Assembly (NCBI RefSeq): GCF_000189755.2
Contig: NZ_KI912183.1
Location: 1,738,257-1,802,256 of the forward strand
Direction: 5' to 3'
Source of the DNA: Desulfotomaculum nigrificans DSM 574
Lineage (GTDB): Bacteria; Bacillota; Desulfotomaculia; Desulfotomaculales; Desulfotomaculaceae
DNA: 64,000 nucleotides
Part shown: positions 56,893 through 64,000 of the stretch, one piece after another
Layout of the letters: each line of letters starts with the position of its first letter
How positions within the stretch are numbered: the stretch's first letter is position 1
Made by a program: the position numbers and the translations under genes
Notes under the pieces: generated by a model
Told to the model about the DNA's origin: nothing
What the model saw: only the letters and a program-made list of their open reading frames with translations
Databases searched by the model: none

Positions 56893-59076
56893 TTAGAAGC
56901 CTTTCATCGGGTTAGGTCCGAACTCTTCCAGATCCTCGGCAAACTTGTCGATGATACCGGGTAGTTCAGCATAATCCATAATGCTGATCTGCACCATGCG
57001 CACCCGTTCAGATTCCAGACCTAAGCGGTCAAGTGTTTCAGAAACCTTGGACAGACGAATTTCTGCCAGTTCACTACCCTTCATGAAGTGGCACTGGTAA
57101 TCGTCACCATGCTTGCAGCCTAACAGCAGTACGCCGTCAAAGCCCTTGGACATGGAGTCTGCGATCCAAACCAGGTTTAGCGAGCCCAGGCAGCGAACGG
57201 GAACAATACGTACCCAGGAGTTGTATTTGAGGCGGTTGATACCGGCCATATCCAGGGCCGGAATAGCATCATTTTCGCAGGCCAGAATAAGAATTCTCGG
57301 TTTTTCCTCATCTTCTTCCGGAACCTCTACGGCTTTAACCATGTTACCAATCATGCCCACTGAGTAGTTCTTAAAGGAAATGATCCTCTCAGGGCAAGCA
57401 CCCATACAGGTACCGCATCTTCTGCATCGAGTCGGGTTGGGCAGCGGGTTACCTTTCTCATCTTCGTTAATAGCACCAAAGGGGCACTCTTCCGTACATC
57501 TCTTGCACTGGGTGCAGCGCTGGAGGGCAAATTCCGGATAAGACAGGTCACCGCTTCTGGGATGCACTGCCGCACCGCCGGCGGTGGCTTCCACACACTG
57601 GATAGCCTTTAAGGCGGCACCGGTGGCGTCACTGACAGCCTTAGCCATATCCATAGGAGCCCTTACACTACCGGCAGCATAAATACCGGTACGGCGGGTC
57701 TCATAGGGGAAGCAAACAAAGTGGGAATCAGGGAAACCATATTTTAAGTTAGGCAATTCAGGACCTTGCCTGTATTGCAGGTTAAGGATTTTCTCGGCAG
57801 CTTCCTGGGTGGCAGCAGCCTCTGCAGCAGCATCATCTGCACCGGCAGCGGCGACGATGGGCTCAGTGGCCCTGGTGGTGGGAACCATACCGTTGGCCAG
57901 CACTACCAGGTCGATATCTTCCACCCGGGCGGTACCGCCCAGTAGCACATCTTCAGATTCAACAACTAACTTACCATTAGCCTCAGAAATACCGGTGATT
58001 TCACCTTTAATAAATACAGCGCCGGTTTCCTGAGCAGTCTTGTAAAGGTGTTCATATTGACCGGAACTACGGATATCTTTATAGAATACATAGGCCATGG
58101 CATCGGGGGCCAGTTCCTTTAGATAAGTGGTCTGTTTCAAGGTTTCTACACAGCAGGCTGCGGAACAGTAAGGCAGGCGCTCTTTATCCCGGGAACCGGC
58201 ACATTGAATGAAGGCAACCTTCTTGGCATTAATTTTGCCAGTCTTAGCCATGGCTTCAAAATCAGCATGGGTGATCACATTGGGATATTTGCCATAACCC
58301 AGGTGATCCAGATTCAGATTTGGTTTGGAACCGGTGGCCAGCACAATGGCCCCTACCCGTTCAGCAATGATATTACCGCCCTGGTTAATTTCAGCGTCAA
58401 ACATGCCGGGCCCACCGGCAATCTTTTCAATTACCGCACCGGTATAAACCTTGATATTGGGATTAGCTTCGATTTCAGCAATACGTCCGGCCAGGTTGGG
58501 GTCTTCCGGAGTAGTAAAAGGAGCGGCCATTGGGGTAGTCTTATAAACCTTGTTTAAATAACCACCCAGGCTGGCTTCTTTTTCCACCAGCACTACCGGA
58601 TAACCTGCTTTACCGGCTTCCAGTGCTGCGGTCATACCGGCTAAACCGCCGCCCACCACCAGCACAGTTTTGGACAGGTTCTCGCCAATGTAAGGGGTAG
58701 GCTGTTCACCACTTTGGACCTTAACCACACCCATGCGCACATTATCTTCAGCCAGCATCTGGGTGTCTTCATCATTGGGTTCATGGCTCCAAATAACCTG
58801 CTCCCGCAAATTTACCCGCTCCAGGAACACATTGGGGAACCTGAACACATCATAATTAACACGGCTGGAGCAAGCGGCAATTACCACGCCATCCAGTTGC
58901 TGAGCTTCAATTTCATTCTTAATTAATTCTGCACCTTCAGCGGAACACAGACAAGCATGTTCATGGCATACAGGTACTTTATATTCCTTAGCTGCAACTT
59001 TGGTTAAGGCGGCTACGTCAAGGGCTTCGCCAATGCCACAACCAGAGCAGATGAAAAATCCTAGTTTTTTAGCCAT
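56893..59076 (-). CDS. qmoB: Quinone-interacting membrane-bound oxidoreductase subunit QmoB
   Basis: 727 residues. HdrA-like flavoprotein: N-terminal Cys motif FICSGCGIGEAL and HACLCS, FAD motif VLVVGGGLAGMTAALEAG near 140, IQCAGSRDKERLPYCSAACC, two ferredoxin clusters (CTQCKRCTEECP and CRRCGTCMGACP), then a C-terminal MvhD-like domain (ILILACENDAIPALDMAG, LLLGCKHGDDYQCH). It accepts electrons for AprBA from the membrane pool or from a heterodisulfide-type partner. It is four bases after qmoA. No qmoC or hdrBC follows it: a terminator does. Confidence 0.96.
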   Translation of the reverse strand: MAKKLGFFICSGCGIGEALDVAALTKVAAKEYKVPVCHEHACLCSAEGAELIKNEIEAQQLDGVVIAACSSRVNYDVFRFPNVFLERVNLREQVIWSHEPNDEDTQMLAEDNVRMGVVKVQSGEQPTPYIGENLSKTVLVVGGGLAGMTAALEAGKAGYPVVLVEKEASLGGYLNKVYKTTPMAAPFTTPEDPNLAGRIAEIEANPNIKVYTGAVIEKIAGGPGMFDAEINQGGNIIAERVGAIVLATGSKPNLNLDHLGYGKYPNVITHADFEAMAKTGKINAKKVAFIQCAGSRDKERLPYCSAACCVETLKQTTYLKELAPDAMAYVFYKDIRSSGQYEHLYKTAQETGAVFIKGEITGISEANGKLVVESEDVLLGGTARVEDIDLVVLANGMVPTTRATEPIVAAAGADDAAAEAAATQEAAEKILNLQYRQGPELPNLKYGFPDSHFVCFPYETRRTGIYAAGSVRAPMDMAKAVSDATGAALKAIQCVEATAGGAAVHPRSGDLSYPEFALQRCTQCKRCTEECPFGAINEDEKGNPLPNPTRCRRCGTCMGACPERIISFKNYSVGMIGNMVKAVEVPEEDEEKPRILILACENDAIPALDMAGINRLKYNSWVRIVPVRCLGSLNLVWIADSMSKGFDGVLLLGCKHGDDYQCHFMKGSELAEIRLSKVSETLDRLGLESERVRMVQISIMDYAELPGIIDKFAEDLEEFGPNPMKGF

Positions 59077-59080
59077 TGTC

Positions 59081-60331
59081 TTACCCCCTCACCGTTGATT
59101 GTATGGCTTTTATGACAGCACCGGTGGCGCTTTGCACGGAAGAGGCAACATCACCAGGTTTAGCCACGCAACCTGCACCATAAATACCAGGAGCCTCAGG
59201 GCTATTTACCAAAAAGCCATCAACGTCATAAGCCGCGGCGGCAGGAACTTGAGCGGTAGCGGTGGCAGGAGCCATACCGGTGGCCAGGACTACCATATCA
59301 TATTTCAGTTCGGTTATTTCTTGGGTTAATTGGTTTTCAGCCAGTACTATAACATCCTTGGTTTCCGGATCTTCTTTAATCTCAGACGGCTTACCTTTAA
59401 TCATGGTAATGTCGTATTCCTGAACTTTATTGTAGAAATCCTCGTATTTGCCCATAGCCCGGATATCCATATAATAAATGGTTACCTTGGCGTCAGGGTA
59501 TTGCTTTTTCACATAGGTGATTTGTTTTAGGGAGGCCATGCAGCATACTGAAGAGCAGGCTTTTTGGTGATTTTCGTCCCGGGAACCGGCACACTGTACA
59601 AAGGCAATGTTTTTAGGTTCTTTACCGTCAGAGGGACGAACAATCTTTCCATTGGTCGGTCCAGTGAGGGCAGCTAAGCGCTCCATCATGATGTTAGAGA
59701 TGGCATTGGTGACCGTGCCGGATCCGTAATTGCTAAGTTTTTCAATGGGATAAGAATCCCAACCGGTAGCCCAGATGATAGCACCAACATTTAGATTCAT
59801 AGTCTTGGCCTTCATGCCCAGGTCAATAGCTTTTACTTCACAAGCCTCAACGCATTTGCCGCAGGAGGCACCGGTGCAAGCGGTATCATCAATCACATAC
59901 TTCATAGGGAAGGCAAAGGGATGGGCCAAGTAAGCGGCTTTGGTCTTGTCAAGACCAAAGTTAAAATCGTTGGCTCTTTCAACGGGACATACTTCAGCAC
60001 ATTTACCACAGCCGGTACAATTATCTGCCACGTACCGGGGCTTAATCTTAATAGTTACATCAAAGTTACCTTCCTGACCGGAGATGTTTTCAACTTCAGC
60101 CAGGGTGATAACTCTGATTTTAGGGTTCTTTTTAATTCTTTGGAAGTTAATTTCCAAACCGCAGTTAGGCGGGCAAAGCTTGGGGAAATATTCGTTGATC
60201 TGAGCTACTTTACCGCCCAGATAAGAGTTCTTTTCCACCAAGAACACTTCATAACCTACTTCGGCGGCTTCCACAGCGGCGGTAATTCCACTGATACCGC
60301 CACCTACTACTAATATGCTTTTGTTCGCCAT
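59081..60331 (-). CDS. qmoA: Quinone-interacting membrane-bound oxidoreductase subunit QmoA
   Basis: 416 residues. HdrA-like flavoprotein smaller than QmoB: FAD motif ILVVGGGISGITAAVEAAEV at the N-terminus, a [4Fe-4S] motif CTGCGKCAEVCP and a second, altered one (CTGASCGKCVEACE), IQCAGSRDENHQ-type block FVQCAGSRDENHQKACSSVCC, and the second dinucleotide block MVVLATGMAPATA. Works with QmoB as electron donor to APS reductase. It is separated from aprA by 251 bases that contain a strong hairpin. Confidence 0.96.
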   Translation of the reverse strand: MANKSILVVGGGISGITAAVEAAEVGYEVFLVEKNSYLGGKVAQINEYFPKLCPPNCGLEINFQRIKKNPKIRVITLAEVENISGQEGNFDVTIKIKPRYVADNCTGCGKCAEVCPVERANDFNFGLDKTKAAYLAHPFAFPMKYVIDDTACTGASCGKCVEACEVKAIDLGMKAKTMNLNVGAIIWATGWDSYPIEKLSNYGSGTVTNAISNIMMERLAALTGPTNGKIVRPSDGKEPKNIAFVQCAGSRDENHQKACSSVCCMASLKQITYVKKQYPDAKVTIYYMDIRAMGKYEDFYNKVQEYDITMIKGKPSEIKEDPETKDVIVLAENQLTQEITELKYDMVVLATGMAPATATAQVPAAAAYDVDGFLVNSPEAPGIYGAGCVAKPGDVASSVQSATGAVIKAIQSTVRG

Positions 60332-60582: not shown

Positions 60583-62457
60583 TTAGTCAACCAGACGGAT
60601 GATGGGCCGTTTGATCATTTCCCATTCACCGGTAGCTGCATCGTACTTGCAGTTAACGAATACTTCCCAATCTTCCTTCATCTTGGGCTCGTCAGCGCGG
60701 AAGTAGTAGCCGGGCCAACGGGTCTCTTCACGGAACATTACGGTACGGATGTGGGCTTCAGCCTGCAGGGTTCTGTGGATGTTTTCCCAGCATCTCATTA
60801 ATTCGTGCAGGTTGCGAGCAGCCAGTTTTTGGCCGTCTTCTTTCAGCATGAGCAGGTACTCAAGACCTTTTTCTAACAGAGCCTTGCTGGTGGTGAAGTT
60901 AGATACAACACCGCCGGCGTACTCGTCCATCAGCTTTTGCAGACGGAACATGTACATTCTGGGCAGGATGTAGTTCGGGTTGGTTTCGGGGTCAGTGGTG
61001 AAGCCACTGAACTCTTCCCAAATAGCCAGAGGCTTGAGGATCTTAGCCTTCAGTTCTTCTATCTTAGCATCGTCAATGTTGGGCTCCTGGTTGTTTTCTA
61101 CAACGAAGCGTACGGCAGACTTACCAGCGATACGACCTTCGGCGTGAGAACCGGAGGAGAACTTGTGGCTGGAAGCACCGGAAGCGTCGCCGGCAGCAAA
61201 CAGGCCCTTAACAGTGGTCATGTTGGTGTAACCCCACTGATATTCCGGAGGAGCGATGTCAGCAGGACCGGATACCCAGGCACCGGAAGCACCGGAGTGA
61301 GAACCGATGAAGTAAGGTTCAGCAGCAGCGATCTCGGATGCTTTTTCTTCCGGAGCAATGTTACAAGCTGCCCACAGCATAGCTTGAGAAACAGTCATAT
61401 CAAGGAAATCTTCCCAAGCTTCGCTTTCCAGTTCTTTCATTTTCTTCTTAAAGGCCTTGGGATCGTCTTCGTATTCTTTAGCCAAGTTAGCAATAGCTTC
61501 AGCAGTTTGCATGTAGATGGGGCCTAAACCAGCGCTGGTATCTAACATACCGAGGTAGTTGCGCAGGTTAGCAGGGATGGGCTTAACTTTGCCATAGGGA
61601 CCCCAGTTTTCCAGTTCGGCGCGGCGGGTTACCATGTACTCTTCACCCAGAGCGTTGGTAGCACGGGATTTGAAGAGCAGGAACCAAGCACCTACAGGAC
61701 CGTAAGCATCTTTAAAACGTACGGGAATGAAACGTACTTCCTGGCAGGTCATTTCAGCGCCAGCTGCCATGGTGAAATAAGCAGAGGAACCGGAGCTAAA
61801 CGGAGGATACCAGGAACGGCCAAGACCTTCACCGGTGGAACGGGGCTTGAATACGCCTACAGCACCGCCCATAGCAGCAATAACGGCTTTAGCCTTAAAT
61901 ACATAAACTTTTTCTTCACGGGTGCTGAAACCGATAGCACCAGCGATTCTGTCACCATCCATGATGGGCTCGCAGATGTAAACACGTTCGTAAATGTTGT
62001 CGGTACCCAGAGCGTTCTTAGCAGCTTCTGCAACGATGACCTTGTAGGACTCACCGTTTAACATGATCTGCCAGCGGCCACCACGAACATAGTTGCCGTC
62101 TTCTTTCTTCCAAATGGGCAGACCCCATTTTTCAAACAGGTGAACGCTGGAGTCAACGTGACGGGCAATGTTAGCGACCAAGTCATCACGAGCAATACCC
62201 ATCAGGTCGTTTTTAACGTACTTAACATAATCTTCAACGGTGTTTTCGCCTTTAGCAACACCCAGGTATTGGTTAATAGCAGACAGACCCATAGCAACGG
62301 CACCGGAACGGTCCATAGCAGCCTTATCCACCAGGGTAACCTTTAAGCCGTTTTTCTTAGCCCAATAAGCTGCTTCAACGGCTGCGCCGCAAGCTGCCAT
62401 ACCGCCACCAAGGATCAGAATGTCGGTATTCACTACAACAGTTTCAAAGTTCGGCAT
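60583..62457 (-). CDS. aprA: Adenylylsulfate (APS) reductase, alpha subunit
   Basis: 624 residues. FAD-containing catalytic subunit that reduces APS to sulfite and AMP. N-terminal FAD motif TDILILGGGMAACGAAVEAA, the block DKAAMDRSGAVAMGLSAIN, and GADASGASSHKFSSGSHAEGR-like segment (SGASSHKFSSGSHAEGRIAG) near residue 420 are diagnostic, as is the C-terminal RTVMFREETRWPGYYFRAD. GGAGG before ATG. It follows aprB by 34 bases. Codon and composition use is that of a highly expressed gene. Confidence 0.98.
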   Translation of the reverse strand: MPNFETVVVNTDILILGGGMAACGAAVEAAYWAKKNGLKVTLVDKAAMDRSGAVAMGLSAINQYLGVAKGENTVEDYVKYVKNDLMGIARDDLVANIARHVDSSVHLFEKWGLPIWKKEDGNYVRGGRWQIMLNGESYKVIVAEAAKNALGTDNIYERVYICEPIMDGDRIAGAIGFSTREEKVYVFKAKAVIAAMGGAVGVFKPRSTGEGLGRSWYPPFSSGSSAYFTMAAGAEMTCQEVRFIPVRFKDAYGPVGAWFLLFKSRATNALGEEYMVTRRAELENWGPYGKVKPIPANLRNYLGMLDTSAGLGPIYMQTAEAIANLAKEYEDDPKAFKKKMKELESEAWEDFLDMTVSQAMLWAACNIAPEEKASEIAAAEPYFIGSHSGASGAWVSGPADIAPPEYQWGYTNMTTVKGLFAAGDASGASSHKFSSGSHAEGRIAGKSAVRFVVENNQEPNIDDAKIEELKAKILKPLAIWEEFSGFTTDPETNPNYILPRMYMFRLQKLMDEYAGGVVSNFTTSKALLEKGLEYLLMLKEDGQKLAARNLHELMRCWENIHRTLQAEAHIRTVMFREETRWPGYYFRADEPKMKEDWEVFVNCKYDAATGEWEMIKRPIIRLVD

Positions 62458-62491: not shown

Positions 62492-62935
62492 TTACTTCTT
62501 GAAAGCAGGCAGTTCAGGAGTACCGATAGAATAGGGTTCAGTGAACAGAAGCTCGTTGTTCAGATCTTCCTGGTCTACGGTATAACCGCCGGTGGGATCA
62601 GCGCTACCTTCAGGAGTGGTACGGATGGGGAATTTAAACCGCTTCAGTTGGCCGTTACGGAATTTAACGGTCCACATGATGCTGTCAGAACTTCTGAGAG
62701 GTACGCAACTAGCACCCATGGGAACGAAGTCAGCATAGCCACGAACGTCAATAGCTTGTTGCGGGCAAATTTTAACGCAGCAGTAGCACTCCCAGCACTG
62801 GGAAGTATCACGGTTATAGGCTTTCATTCTTTCTTTGTCCAGAACCATTAAGTCATTGGGGCAGATGTACATGCAAGCGGTTTTGTCTTGTCCCTTGCAA
62901 CCATCGCACTTTTCAGCAATTACAAAGCTAGGCAT
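62492..62935 (-). CDS. aprB: Adenylylsulfate (APS) reductase, beta subunit
   Basis: 147 residues. Ferredoxin-like electron carrier with two [4Fe-4S] clusters: CDGCKGQDKTACMYICP and CWECYCCVKICPQ. The C-terminal tail (FPIRTTPEGSADPTGGYTVD and beyond) wraps around AprA in known structures. AGGGAGG before ATG. First gene of the aprBA-qmoAB group and preceded by a long structured leader. Confidence 0.97.
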   Translation of the reverse strand: MPSFVIAEKCDGCKGQDKTACMYICPNDLMVLDKERMKAYNRDTSQCWECYCCVKICPQQAIDVRGYADFVPMGASCVPLRSSDSIMWTVKFRNGQLKRFKFPIRTTPEGSADPTGGYTVDQEDLNNELLFTEPYSIGTPELPAFKK

Positions 62936-63232
62936 TTTTTTACCTCCCTATTTCTAATTTTAAAGACTATTCGTCTTTAACAGGCCTTATTTATTGAGAT
63001 CATTTAGCATAAACCATTTCCCTACCCGCCGGTGTAACGGATTCTCAAAATGATTAGTTCGGAAACCCCGATTTGGTTATTGACTGCATCTTTACTTATT
63101 ACTTGCCGGTAATTTCTTGGGCCTTACCACCTCCTCCAAACAGGTTACTTCACCAGCAGTAAGGGCCTTATTGCCGTTGGTATAGCGGAAACGGAATGTT
63201 TCCCTACACCAACGGATTGAATTTCAAATACC
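62936..63232 (-). promoter_or_regulatory. Structured leader of about 300 nt before aprB
   Basis: Between the predicted start point near 63226 and aprB there is no gene, but several stems. The main one has arms 63174-63192 and 63198-63215 (CCGTTGGTATAGCGGAAAC against a complement with one bulge and one mismatch). Another is TAAAGAC / GTCTTTA at about 62961-62979, near the aprB start. A GGAGGAGGTGGTAAGG stretch around 63121-63136 (minus strand) looks like a ribosome binding site but heads only a 12-codon frame. I recognise no known riboswitch class. The gap 62936-63364 as a whole is 429 bases. Confidence 0.45.
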
Positions 63233-63260
63233 GGTATATATAAAGATGTCAAACTGTCAA
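63233..63260 (-). promoter_or_regulatory. Candidate sigma-A promoter of the apr-qmo operon
   Basis: Minus strand: -35 TTGACA (63255-63260), 16-base spacer, -10 TATACC (63233-63238). A second TTGACA follows eight bases downstream (63247-63252). Confidence 0.5.
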
Positions 63261-63305
63261 TTATCAGACAGATCATTTATGTCGAATACTGTAGGATATT
63301 AGTAT

Positions 63306-63328
63306 AGACTTACTAATGCTATAAGTCT
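63306..63328 (-). terminator. Weak hairpin after sat
   Basis: A 7-bp stem AGACTTA / TAAGTCT with a 9-base loop, 37 bases after the sat stop. The T-run is poor, so sat transcription may continue into aprB. Confidence 0.35.
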
Positions 63329-63364
63329 TACGCAACCCACAAGTCGGCGGAAAACAATTTATAC

Positions 63365-64000
63365 TTATTCTTTAAGACCTTGATAGTATTTGGTGAGGAT
63401 TTCCAGAACTTCCTTACGGCCAAACTCAAGCGGCGGCAGTTCGCCTCTGGAGAACATTTCGCGAACCTTGGTGCCGCTGATGGCAATACGATCTTCTTTG
63501 CCGTGCGGGCAGGTCTTTTCTGTGGCCATACCCATGCACTTCTTGCAGTAGTAAGCTGCGGTAACTTTAATGGGTTGGCAAAGAATTTCGCCGGGCTTGA
63601 ATTGATCAAAGATTTCTTGGGCTTGGTAAGGTGTATAGTAGCTGCCTACACCAGCGTGGTCACGACCAATCAGGATGTGGCTGCAGCCAAAGTTTTGACG
63701 GAAGATAGCGTGGAGAATAGCTTCCTTAGGACCGGCATAGCGCATTTCCATGGGATATACGCGCATTTCAACATACTTGGGATTGAAGTAGTTTTCCAGG
63801 TGAGCTTTGTAAGCTTCGAAGCGAACTTCAGCCGGAATGTCACCCTTCTTCAATTTACCAACGATGGGGTGGATAAACAAGCCATCACAAATTTCCATAC
63901 CGATCTTGCACAGGAACTCATGGGAACGGTGCAGGGGGTTCCTGGTTTGGAATGCAGCAACGGTATTCCAACCCTTAGATTCGAACAGTTCACGGGTTTG
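63365..64000 (-). CDS. sat: Sulfate adenylyltransferase, C-terminal part (gene continues beyond the window)
   Basis: 212 codons are visible from the window edge. ATP sulfurylase activates sulfate to APS, the substrate of AprBA downstream. The nucleotide motif [12 protein letters not shown] is at about 63926-63950; the frame upstream of it is open to base 64000, so the gene is cut by the window and not truncated. [20 protein letters not shown] and a Cys-rich insert ([18 protein letters not shown]), which binds zinc in related enzymes, are present. The protein ends in a standard way without an APS kinase domain. Confidence 0.96.

Follow-up and report, generated by a model that had tools for sequence, protein, structure and literature searches.

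Among the described systems closest to the leader considered here, the STAB-SD of cry3A was reportedly described by Agaisse and Lereclus in 1996, a polypurine 5' stabiliser is said to go back to Hue in 1995, and the Bacillus subtilis aprE leader was reportedly studied by Hambraeus in 2002; ribosome standby sites, in their classical form, are single-stranded regions that are not defined by Shine-Dalgarno (SD) complementarity. The STAB-SD of Bacillus thuringiensis cry3A is, in the passages of PMC4113751 that deal with it, an experimentally tested stabiliser in the 5' UTR, in a host that has RNase J; this SD-like sequence, complementary to the 3' end of 16S rRNA and not used for initiation, lies about 130 nt upstream of the gene, near the 5' end of the stable transcript. 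With regard to B. subtilis aprE, the pertinent sections of PMC7509114 state that message stability depends on the ribosome-binding site (RBS) and that transcripts lacking start codons remain stable when they carry a strong SD; in the aprE leader, a 5' stem-loop and ribosome binding, but not translation, matter for mRNA stability. For mycobacterial katG, the corresponding part of PMC2358910 describes a polypurine, 16S-complementary stretch that stabilises the mRNA, sits 4 nt upstream of the start codon and depends on translation.

We compared with these systems the leader that precedes aprBA in Desulfotomaculum nigrificans DSM 574, using a window (i.e., the whole stretch of DNA that was analysed) of 64,000 nucleotides. 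An earlier annotation made from the sequence alone (the sequence-only reading) had pointed to a long leader in front of aprBA. The gap between the end of sat (63365) and the start of aprB (62935) is indeed noncoding over its 429 bases, and both genes and the leader lie on the minus strand; the accompanying statement that most leaders in the window are under 60 bases did not hold, as crude gene calls put only 20 of 58 gaps under 60 bases, with a median of 90. The names qmoA and qmoB for the two HdrA-like ORFs 3' of aprA are assumed here from that reading. The features of the locus, in the direction of transcription, are as follows.

63365..64000, minus strand, 3' part of sat (sulfate adenylyltransferase), the gene upstream of the leader (ORF; NCBIfam TIGR00339 and PRK04149 matches)
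63255..63260, minus strand, TTGACA, -35-like, retained by 8 of the 9 Desulforamulus genomes
63233..63238, minus strand, TATACC, the proposed -10, 16 nt from TTGACA and not conserved in relatives
63174..63215, minus strand, P1, a 5' stem-loop that covaries and folds in all 9 genus members (MFE -27.2 kcal/mol)
63151..63165, minus strand, 5' arm of P2, a long-range helix (RNAalifold and covariation)
63125..63146, minus strand, P3, a weak hairpin with the orphan SD (GAGGAGG) in its loop (within the genus, 82% of cells pair)
63126..63135, minus strand, orphan extended SD AGGAGGUGGU, complement of the 16S 3' end, with no start codon 3-12 nt downstream
63059..63071, minus strand, P4, a small hairpin UCGG/CCGA (RNAalifold and covariation)
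63020..63034, minus strand, 3' arm of P2, CACCGGCGGGUAGGG (RNAalifold and covariation)
62960..62980, minus strand, terminal hairpin UUAAAGAC/GUCUUUAA, directly before the aprB RBS and almost unchanged across the genus
62943..62948, minus strand, GGGAGG, the SD of aprB itself
62492..62935, minus strand, aprB (ORF; TIGR02060, 211.7 bits, cut-off 135.65)
60583..62457, minus strand, aprA (ORF; TIGR02061, 910.4 bits)
59081..60331, minus strand, HdrA-like ORF taken as qmoA (HdrA models below their own cut-offs)
56893..59076, minus strand, HdrA-like ORF taken as qmoB (HdrA models below their own cut-offs)

The promoter proposed in the sequence-only reading, TTGACA-N16-TATACC, is present and its -35 stood up to comparison within the genus, but by a consensus scan, which reported no promoter in 62930-63370, it is no better than chance, and its -10 shows no such conservation. 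Across the genus, the block at 63245-63295 (minus strand), which lies upstream of TTGACA and includes it, is conserved (ATTCTACAnTnTTCGACAAAATnATTCTGTCTGnnAGTTGACA); the copy in the window contains an inverted repeat, CTGTC-N8-GACAG. This block is possibly a regulator site or an unusual promoter.

The aprB loci nearest to that of the window are those of D. aeronauticus, D. putei and D. aquiferis, and the window groups with Desulforamulus; the leaders of these three are identical to those of three genomes of the same genus, and a match to the leader was found at aprB in all eight other Desulforamulus genomes examined (nine of nine with that of the window). The transcribed strand of the gap is predicted to have a more stable fold than 99 of 100 shuffles (z -2.8), and three features pointed out in the sequence-only reading are there, namely a large stem (a 42-nt near-perfect stem-loop exactly at 63174-63215), a second stem (the hairpin at 62980-62960, which precedes the aprB RBS) and an internal SD-like stretch, GGAGGAGGTGG, with no gene behind it. 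When RNAalifold was applied to the nine Desulforamulus leaders, four helices (P1, P2, P3 and P4) were obtained; 91.3% of cells in the nine-genome alignment pair in the consensus helices, and 11 pairs carry changes on both sides, a number equalled in 1 of 500 shuffles. The covariation score was 0.262 (reached by 0 of 500 shuffles), compared with 0.177 for the control, and sliding the partners gave at most 0.142. Covarying helices, for which the sequence-only reading had suggested a search, were thus found above control, and the leader, whose lack of conservation in relatives would have counted against that reading, is conserved across Desulforamulus. The terminal hairpin is so nearly invariant in the genus that the alignment does not test its pairing.

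A covariance model of P2-P4 matched the aprB leader in all nine Desulforamulus genomes, where the only other match was weak (E 0.9, in G008). The same model found nothing convincing among the aprB leaders of other families, where L123 came closest (E 0.31). Outside the genus, no match in the order or in 398 sampled genomes of the phylum was better than about E 0.002; of the 394 sampled genomes that lie outside the genus, two had weak matches (E 0.002 and 0.007). The proposed Rfam search likewise returned no match at gathering score in 13 loci, lax E-values adding only sub-threshold, chance-like matches. The structured leader is real and particular to aprBA and to Desulforamulus; since the structure is confined to the genus and matches no Rfam family, a widespread riboswitch is disfavoured. 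In the interval from P3 to P4 an additional hairpin seemed compensatory on inspection, but we do not claim it, as 18 of 200 shuffles (with several regions mis-extracted) were as stable.

Within the leader as it would be transcribed, AGGAGGUGGU is predicted to pair with GAUCACCUCCUUUCU of the organism's own 16S rRNA at -18.7 kcal/mol, a value matched by 0 of 100 shuffles; the six 16S copies examined in this genome end in GGATCACCTCCTTTCT. To place this orphan site in its order, Desulfotomaculales, 73 aprB loci were read and 72 scored (L184, with a partial aprB, was left out); for families f9 and f14 scoring covered only the last 105-130 nt, as a small gene lies further upstream. With the SD of aprB itself excluded, 52 of the 72 leaders gave a duplex with the 16S tail that outscored 95 or more of 100 shuffles, and 49 reached -17 kcal/mol (from rounded values). 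A shared word, GGAGGTGG, occurred in 37 of 72 leaders where 0.7 were expected, and the motif, allowing at most one mismatch, was found in sense in 58 of 72 and in antisense in one. Among 60 sites, 14 had a start codon (ATG, GTG or TTG) 3-12 nt downstream, compared with 40% of random windows; the 60 sites differ from the 58 by L126, which is the RBS of a true gene and one of the 14, and by L136, where the site lies beyond -450. Because these sites are followed by a start codon less often than random windows are, and the peptides that would result are unrelated, we conclude that the orphan site is not an initiation signal.

The variation among sites follows the 16S sequence: letters that face U swap mostly between A and G and those that face C hardly vary (scored without presupposing purines), while an A at position 9, present in 11 of 67 sites, improves the pairing. 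A second purine motif, GGRAGAG, was found in 25 of the 72 aprB leaders of the order in sense and in four in antisense (4.2 in shuffles). The orphan site is lacking in one of the nine Desulforamulus leaders (L117, of genome G006); five of seven f3 leaders failed to beat shuffles, and f6, f7, f8 and f10 fell short of the 5-in-100 line, f7 with a shifted variant, GGGAGTGGTG. In predicted folds of the genus the site is no more open than average (unpaired 0.10-0.58 vs. about 0.4). Overall, the sequence evidence for the orphan element is strong, and it very probably represents a real, selected RNA element that pairs with 16S rRNA.

Further observations were made in individual families. Most of the f3 leaders (L121-L127) are without an orphan site and carry, immediately in front of the aprB RBS, a compact hairpin (GAGG..GGGAGAG..CTCTCCC..CCTC) that by eye apparently covaries. 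Six f16 aprB leaders (L164, L166, L173, L179, L181 and L182) share a conserved block of AAGAAGGA-type and GTCGAAAGTATAATTAT-type sequences well upstream of the orphan site, which to us resembles a Spo0A box (TGTCGAA). P3 was dropped as a feature of the order, since a helix of at least 4 pairs was found at 44 of 59 sites and at 43.5 when upstream arms were swapped between families.

Outside the order, aprB loci were fetched by name, mostly from Desulfobacterota, and 40 were usable. At least 95% of shuffles were beaten by 27 of these 40 leaders in sense and by one in antisense; as three of the 40 duplicate Desulfotomaculales loci, the count outside the order is 25 of 37. The typical form, AGAAAGGAGGUGY, pairs with the very end of 16S rRNA; sites start -81 to -148 from aprB (26 of 27 between -81 and -115, the other at -148), and a start codon lies behind one of the 27. 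We also looked at dsrA in 20 of these genomes, where, after 3 of 18 leaders had been dropped for short gaps, the same kind of site (GAGGGAGGAGGUGAR) was found in 14 of 15 usable Desulfobacterota leaders in sense and in 0 of 15 in antisense, starting at -82 to -103 in 12 of 14 and with a start codon behind two of the 14. For dsrA of Desulfotomaculales (8 of 30 dropped), 8 of 22 passed overall; f16 was clear (5 of 5), and the Desulforamulus and f3 dsrA leaders had no strong site. Most Desulforamulus dsrA leaders (L207-L210, L213, L217, L225, L228 and L233) have a conserved, probably structured leader of their own, with a TTGACA promoter, TTGTGCAATTTNAGACAA, a short GACAAGTTTGTC hairpin with a T run behind it, and TGCCATTTATGGCGGGATAG; the TTGTGCAATTTNAGACAA stretch resembles, in our estimation, a Rex operator. 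Repeats like TTGTTCCAAAATGCACAA, which we likewise take to resemble Rex operators, were seen in three Desulfobacterota aprB promoters (L019, L026 and L036) and in one region upstream of sat (L319).

As a control, sat leaders were taken from 20 genomes (17 of the dsrA set, that of the window and two more), and none of the 15 usable leaders had the site (7 of 22 dropped for a short gap or lack of an ORF). A second, weak control, recA, gave 2 passes among 7 usable leaders, with starts that were probably misplaced and 11 of 18 dropped for short gaps; the starts of sat, recA and dsrA were picked by script and some are wrong. Of 237 leaders in a 464-kb sample of the window's genome (380 crude genes), 12 reached -17 kcal/mol and five reached -18.5 kcal/mol, aprB among them. 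Exact AGGAGGTGRT is rare across this genome, the pattern searched giving 14 matches in 3.05 Mb, which is not above a reversed control. A few other genes of this genome are also preceded by start-less sites, and aprBA is thus not their sole user. At the first of these (L239, near G000:C1:845401), AAGGAGGTGGTAAT is followed by a two-codon ORF, ATG ACG TAA, and lies about 74 nt before a gene that we take to be amidase-like; the AGGAGGTGGT sites at L247, L251 and L261 (G000:C1:1717669, 2164483 and 2602617), which have no clear start codon, precede, in this order, a gene for a membrane protein with multiple spans, one for an exported protein, and glmS (315 nt away), all named by inspection.

The reading we prefer is that the orphan site is a STAB-SD-like stabiliser of the aprBA message, and we hold it about as likely to be right as wrong. 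Transcription would begin ahead of the orphan site and so include the leader; a 30S subunit would pair with 63126-63135 through the 3' end of its 16S rRNA and, with no start codon behind the site, would dock without initiating; and the docked subunit would be a roadblock that keeps RNase J from degrading the message 5' to 3'. P1 at the 5' end of the leader would add protection. Roadblock and P1 together would render the aprBA message long-lived and abundant. As in cry3A, as far as the published passages cited above describe it, a 16S-complementary SD-like sequence with no start codon at proper spacing is found in a host with RNase J (TIGR00649, 674.5 bits in the window's genome; over the cut-off in 17 of 20 genomes). 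Unlike the cry3A site, those reported here are usually interior, precede aprBA or dsrAB across phyla, and are known from sequence; in Desulforamulus the arrangement suggests a site about 90 nt into the transcript, behind P1 and not at the 5' end. The aprE leader offers, in the sections cited, the same pairing of a 5' stem-loop with ribosome binding, and katG, in the part cited, a likeness to both the purine-rich site and the GGRAGAG motif, which is reminiscent of the polypurine stabiliser, although the katG stretch differs in its position and its dependence on translation. We take aprE to use the gene's own RBS, whereas the aprB leader has a separate second site. Between the two interpretations offered by the sequence-only reading, an mRNA stabiliser fits best, given the recurrent start-less 16S-complementary site and the 5' stem-loop of the genus, whereas the RNA sensing a sulfur or redox signal is unsupported (no Rfam match, no more than one weak hit in aprB leaders of other genera, and no conserved aptamer-like core across families).

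The same evidence can be read in other ways. The site might capture a 30S subunit and pass it on, by sliding or transfer, to the aprB RBS, in which case initiation would rise and stability would be secondary; this would resemble ribosome standby sites in that a 30S subunit docks upstream of the RBS of the gene. The roughly constant distance of the sites outside the order from both aprB and dsrA favours such loading, as do the shared strand and lack of a start codon at these sites and the prediction that the aprB RBS is partly paired with its own first codons. In Desulforamulus, f5, f12 and f16, however, most sites are 140-290 nt away and structure intervenes, which loading at a fixed distance does not predict; this long, variable and structured interval favours stabilisation instead. 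A 5' stem-loop and then a strong start-less SD, before a gene expected to be very highly expressed, are also what known 5' stabilisers have. We consider loading the main rival, tentative and rather unlikely, and stabilisation the evenly balanced reading. An improbable reading is that P2 and P4 form the receptor of a riboswitch-like or protein-bound RNA specific to the genus, which controls aprBA with the SD-like loop as part of a switch. P1, P2 and P4 do covary, the unpaired stretches GUCAAUAAAACC and GGGAGACAAGUU are conserved in the genus, the model is specific to the aprB leader there, bar the one weak match in G008, and the 5' arm of P2 has, by eye, an alternative pairing CUGGU/ACCAG; yet neither Rfam nor the aprB leaders of other families yielded a convincing match, the 394 genomes outside the genus gave only the two weak ones, no terminator-like site was found on the coding strand of the leader, and sequestration of the aprB RBS by the leader is not conserved. 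A switch that hides the RBS was rejected, the main predicted partners of the RBS being its own first codons and not the leader. An aptamer confined to one genus may still be compatible with a P2-P4 model that finds only Desulforamulus leaders, and the P2/P4 core with its conserved unpaired bases, which a plain stabiliser leaves unexplained, could be a lineage-specific regulator.

Two further readings remain. If the motif were an element unrelated to ribosomes, i.e., bound by a GGA-binding protein of the CsrA type, folded into a G-quadruplex or recognised by a transcription factor, its G-richness and GGA repeats would be accounted for, and GGAGGAGGTGG could by inspection form a two-tier quadruplex; the A/G swaps opposite U, the near-fixed letters opposite C and the strict sense orientation make this very improbable, and in several leaders a TTGACA-type promoter is seen by eye well upstream, so that the motif would be transcribed. 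The quadruplex was rejected in particular, as the A at position 9 breaks the fourth G pair, the number of G runs varies and the substitutions favour 16S pairing. Least probable, to the point of being nearly negligible, is a short upstream ORF that is driven by the SD and controls aprBA through stalling or coupling: an ATG stands at the right spacing in a few leaders (L163, L170, L174 and L180), but start codons are depleted at the sites within the order and stand behind one of 27 outside it, the peptides range from 1 to 46 codons, and neither start codon nor frame is conserved.

Few proteins in sulfate reducers are reputed to be more abundant than APS reductase and dissimilatory sulfite reductase, and aprBA is expected to be very highly expressed. 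The recurrence of the site before aprBA, and often before dsrAB, of distantly related sulfate reducers suggests that it probably protects these messages or feeds ribosomes to them. We found no account of such a site in sulfate reducers in the openly licensed part of PubMed Central. A broader proposal, which we regard as doubtful, is that a dedicated 16S-pairing site with no start codon is common to dissimilatory sulfate reducers of separate phyla, placed before aprBA and often dsrAB, though not sat. Idle 30S docking at this site would tie the life and output of the main respiratory messages to the supply of free ribosomes, and this layer of post-transcriptional control would be new. The orphan site, as a 10-base element, is open to simple mutation. 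A start-less docking site that recurs before these operons across phyla would account for part of the output of APS reductase and sulfite reductase and, among natural cases of STAB-SD-like action, would be the widest known to us.
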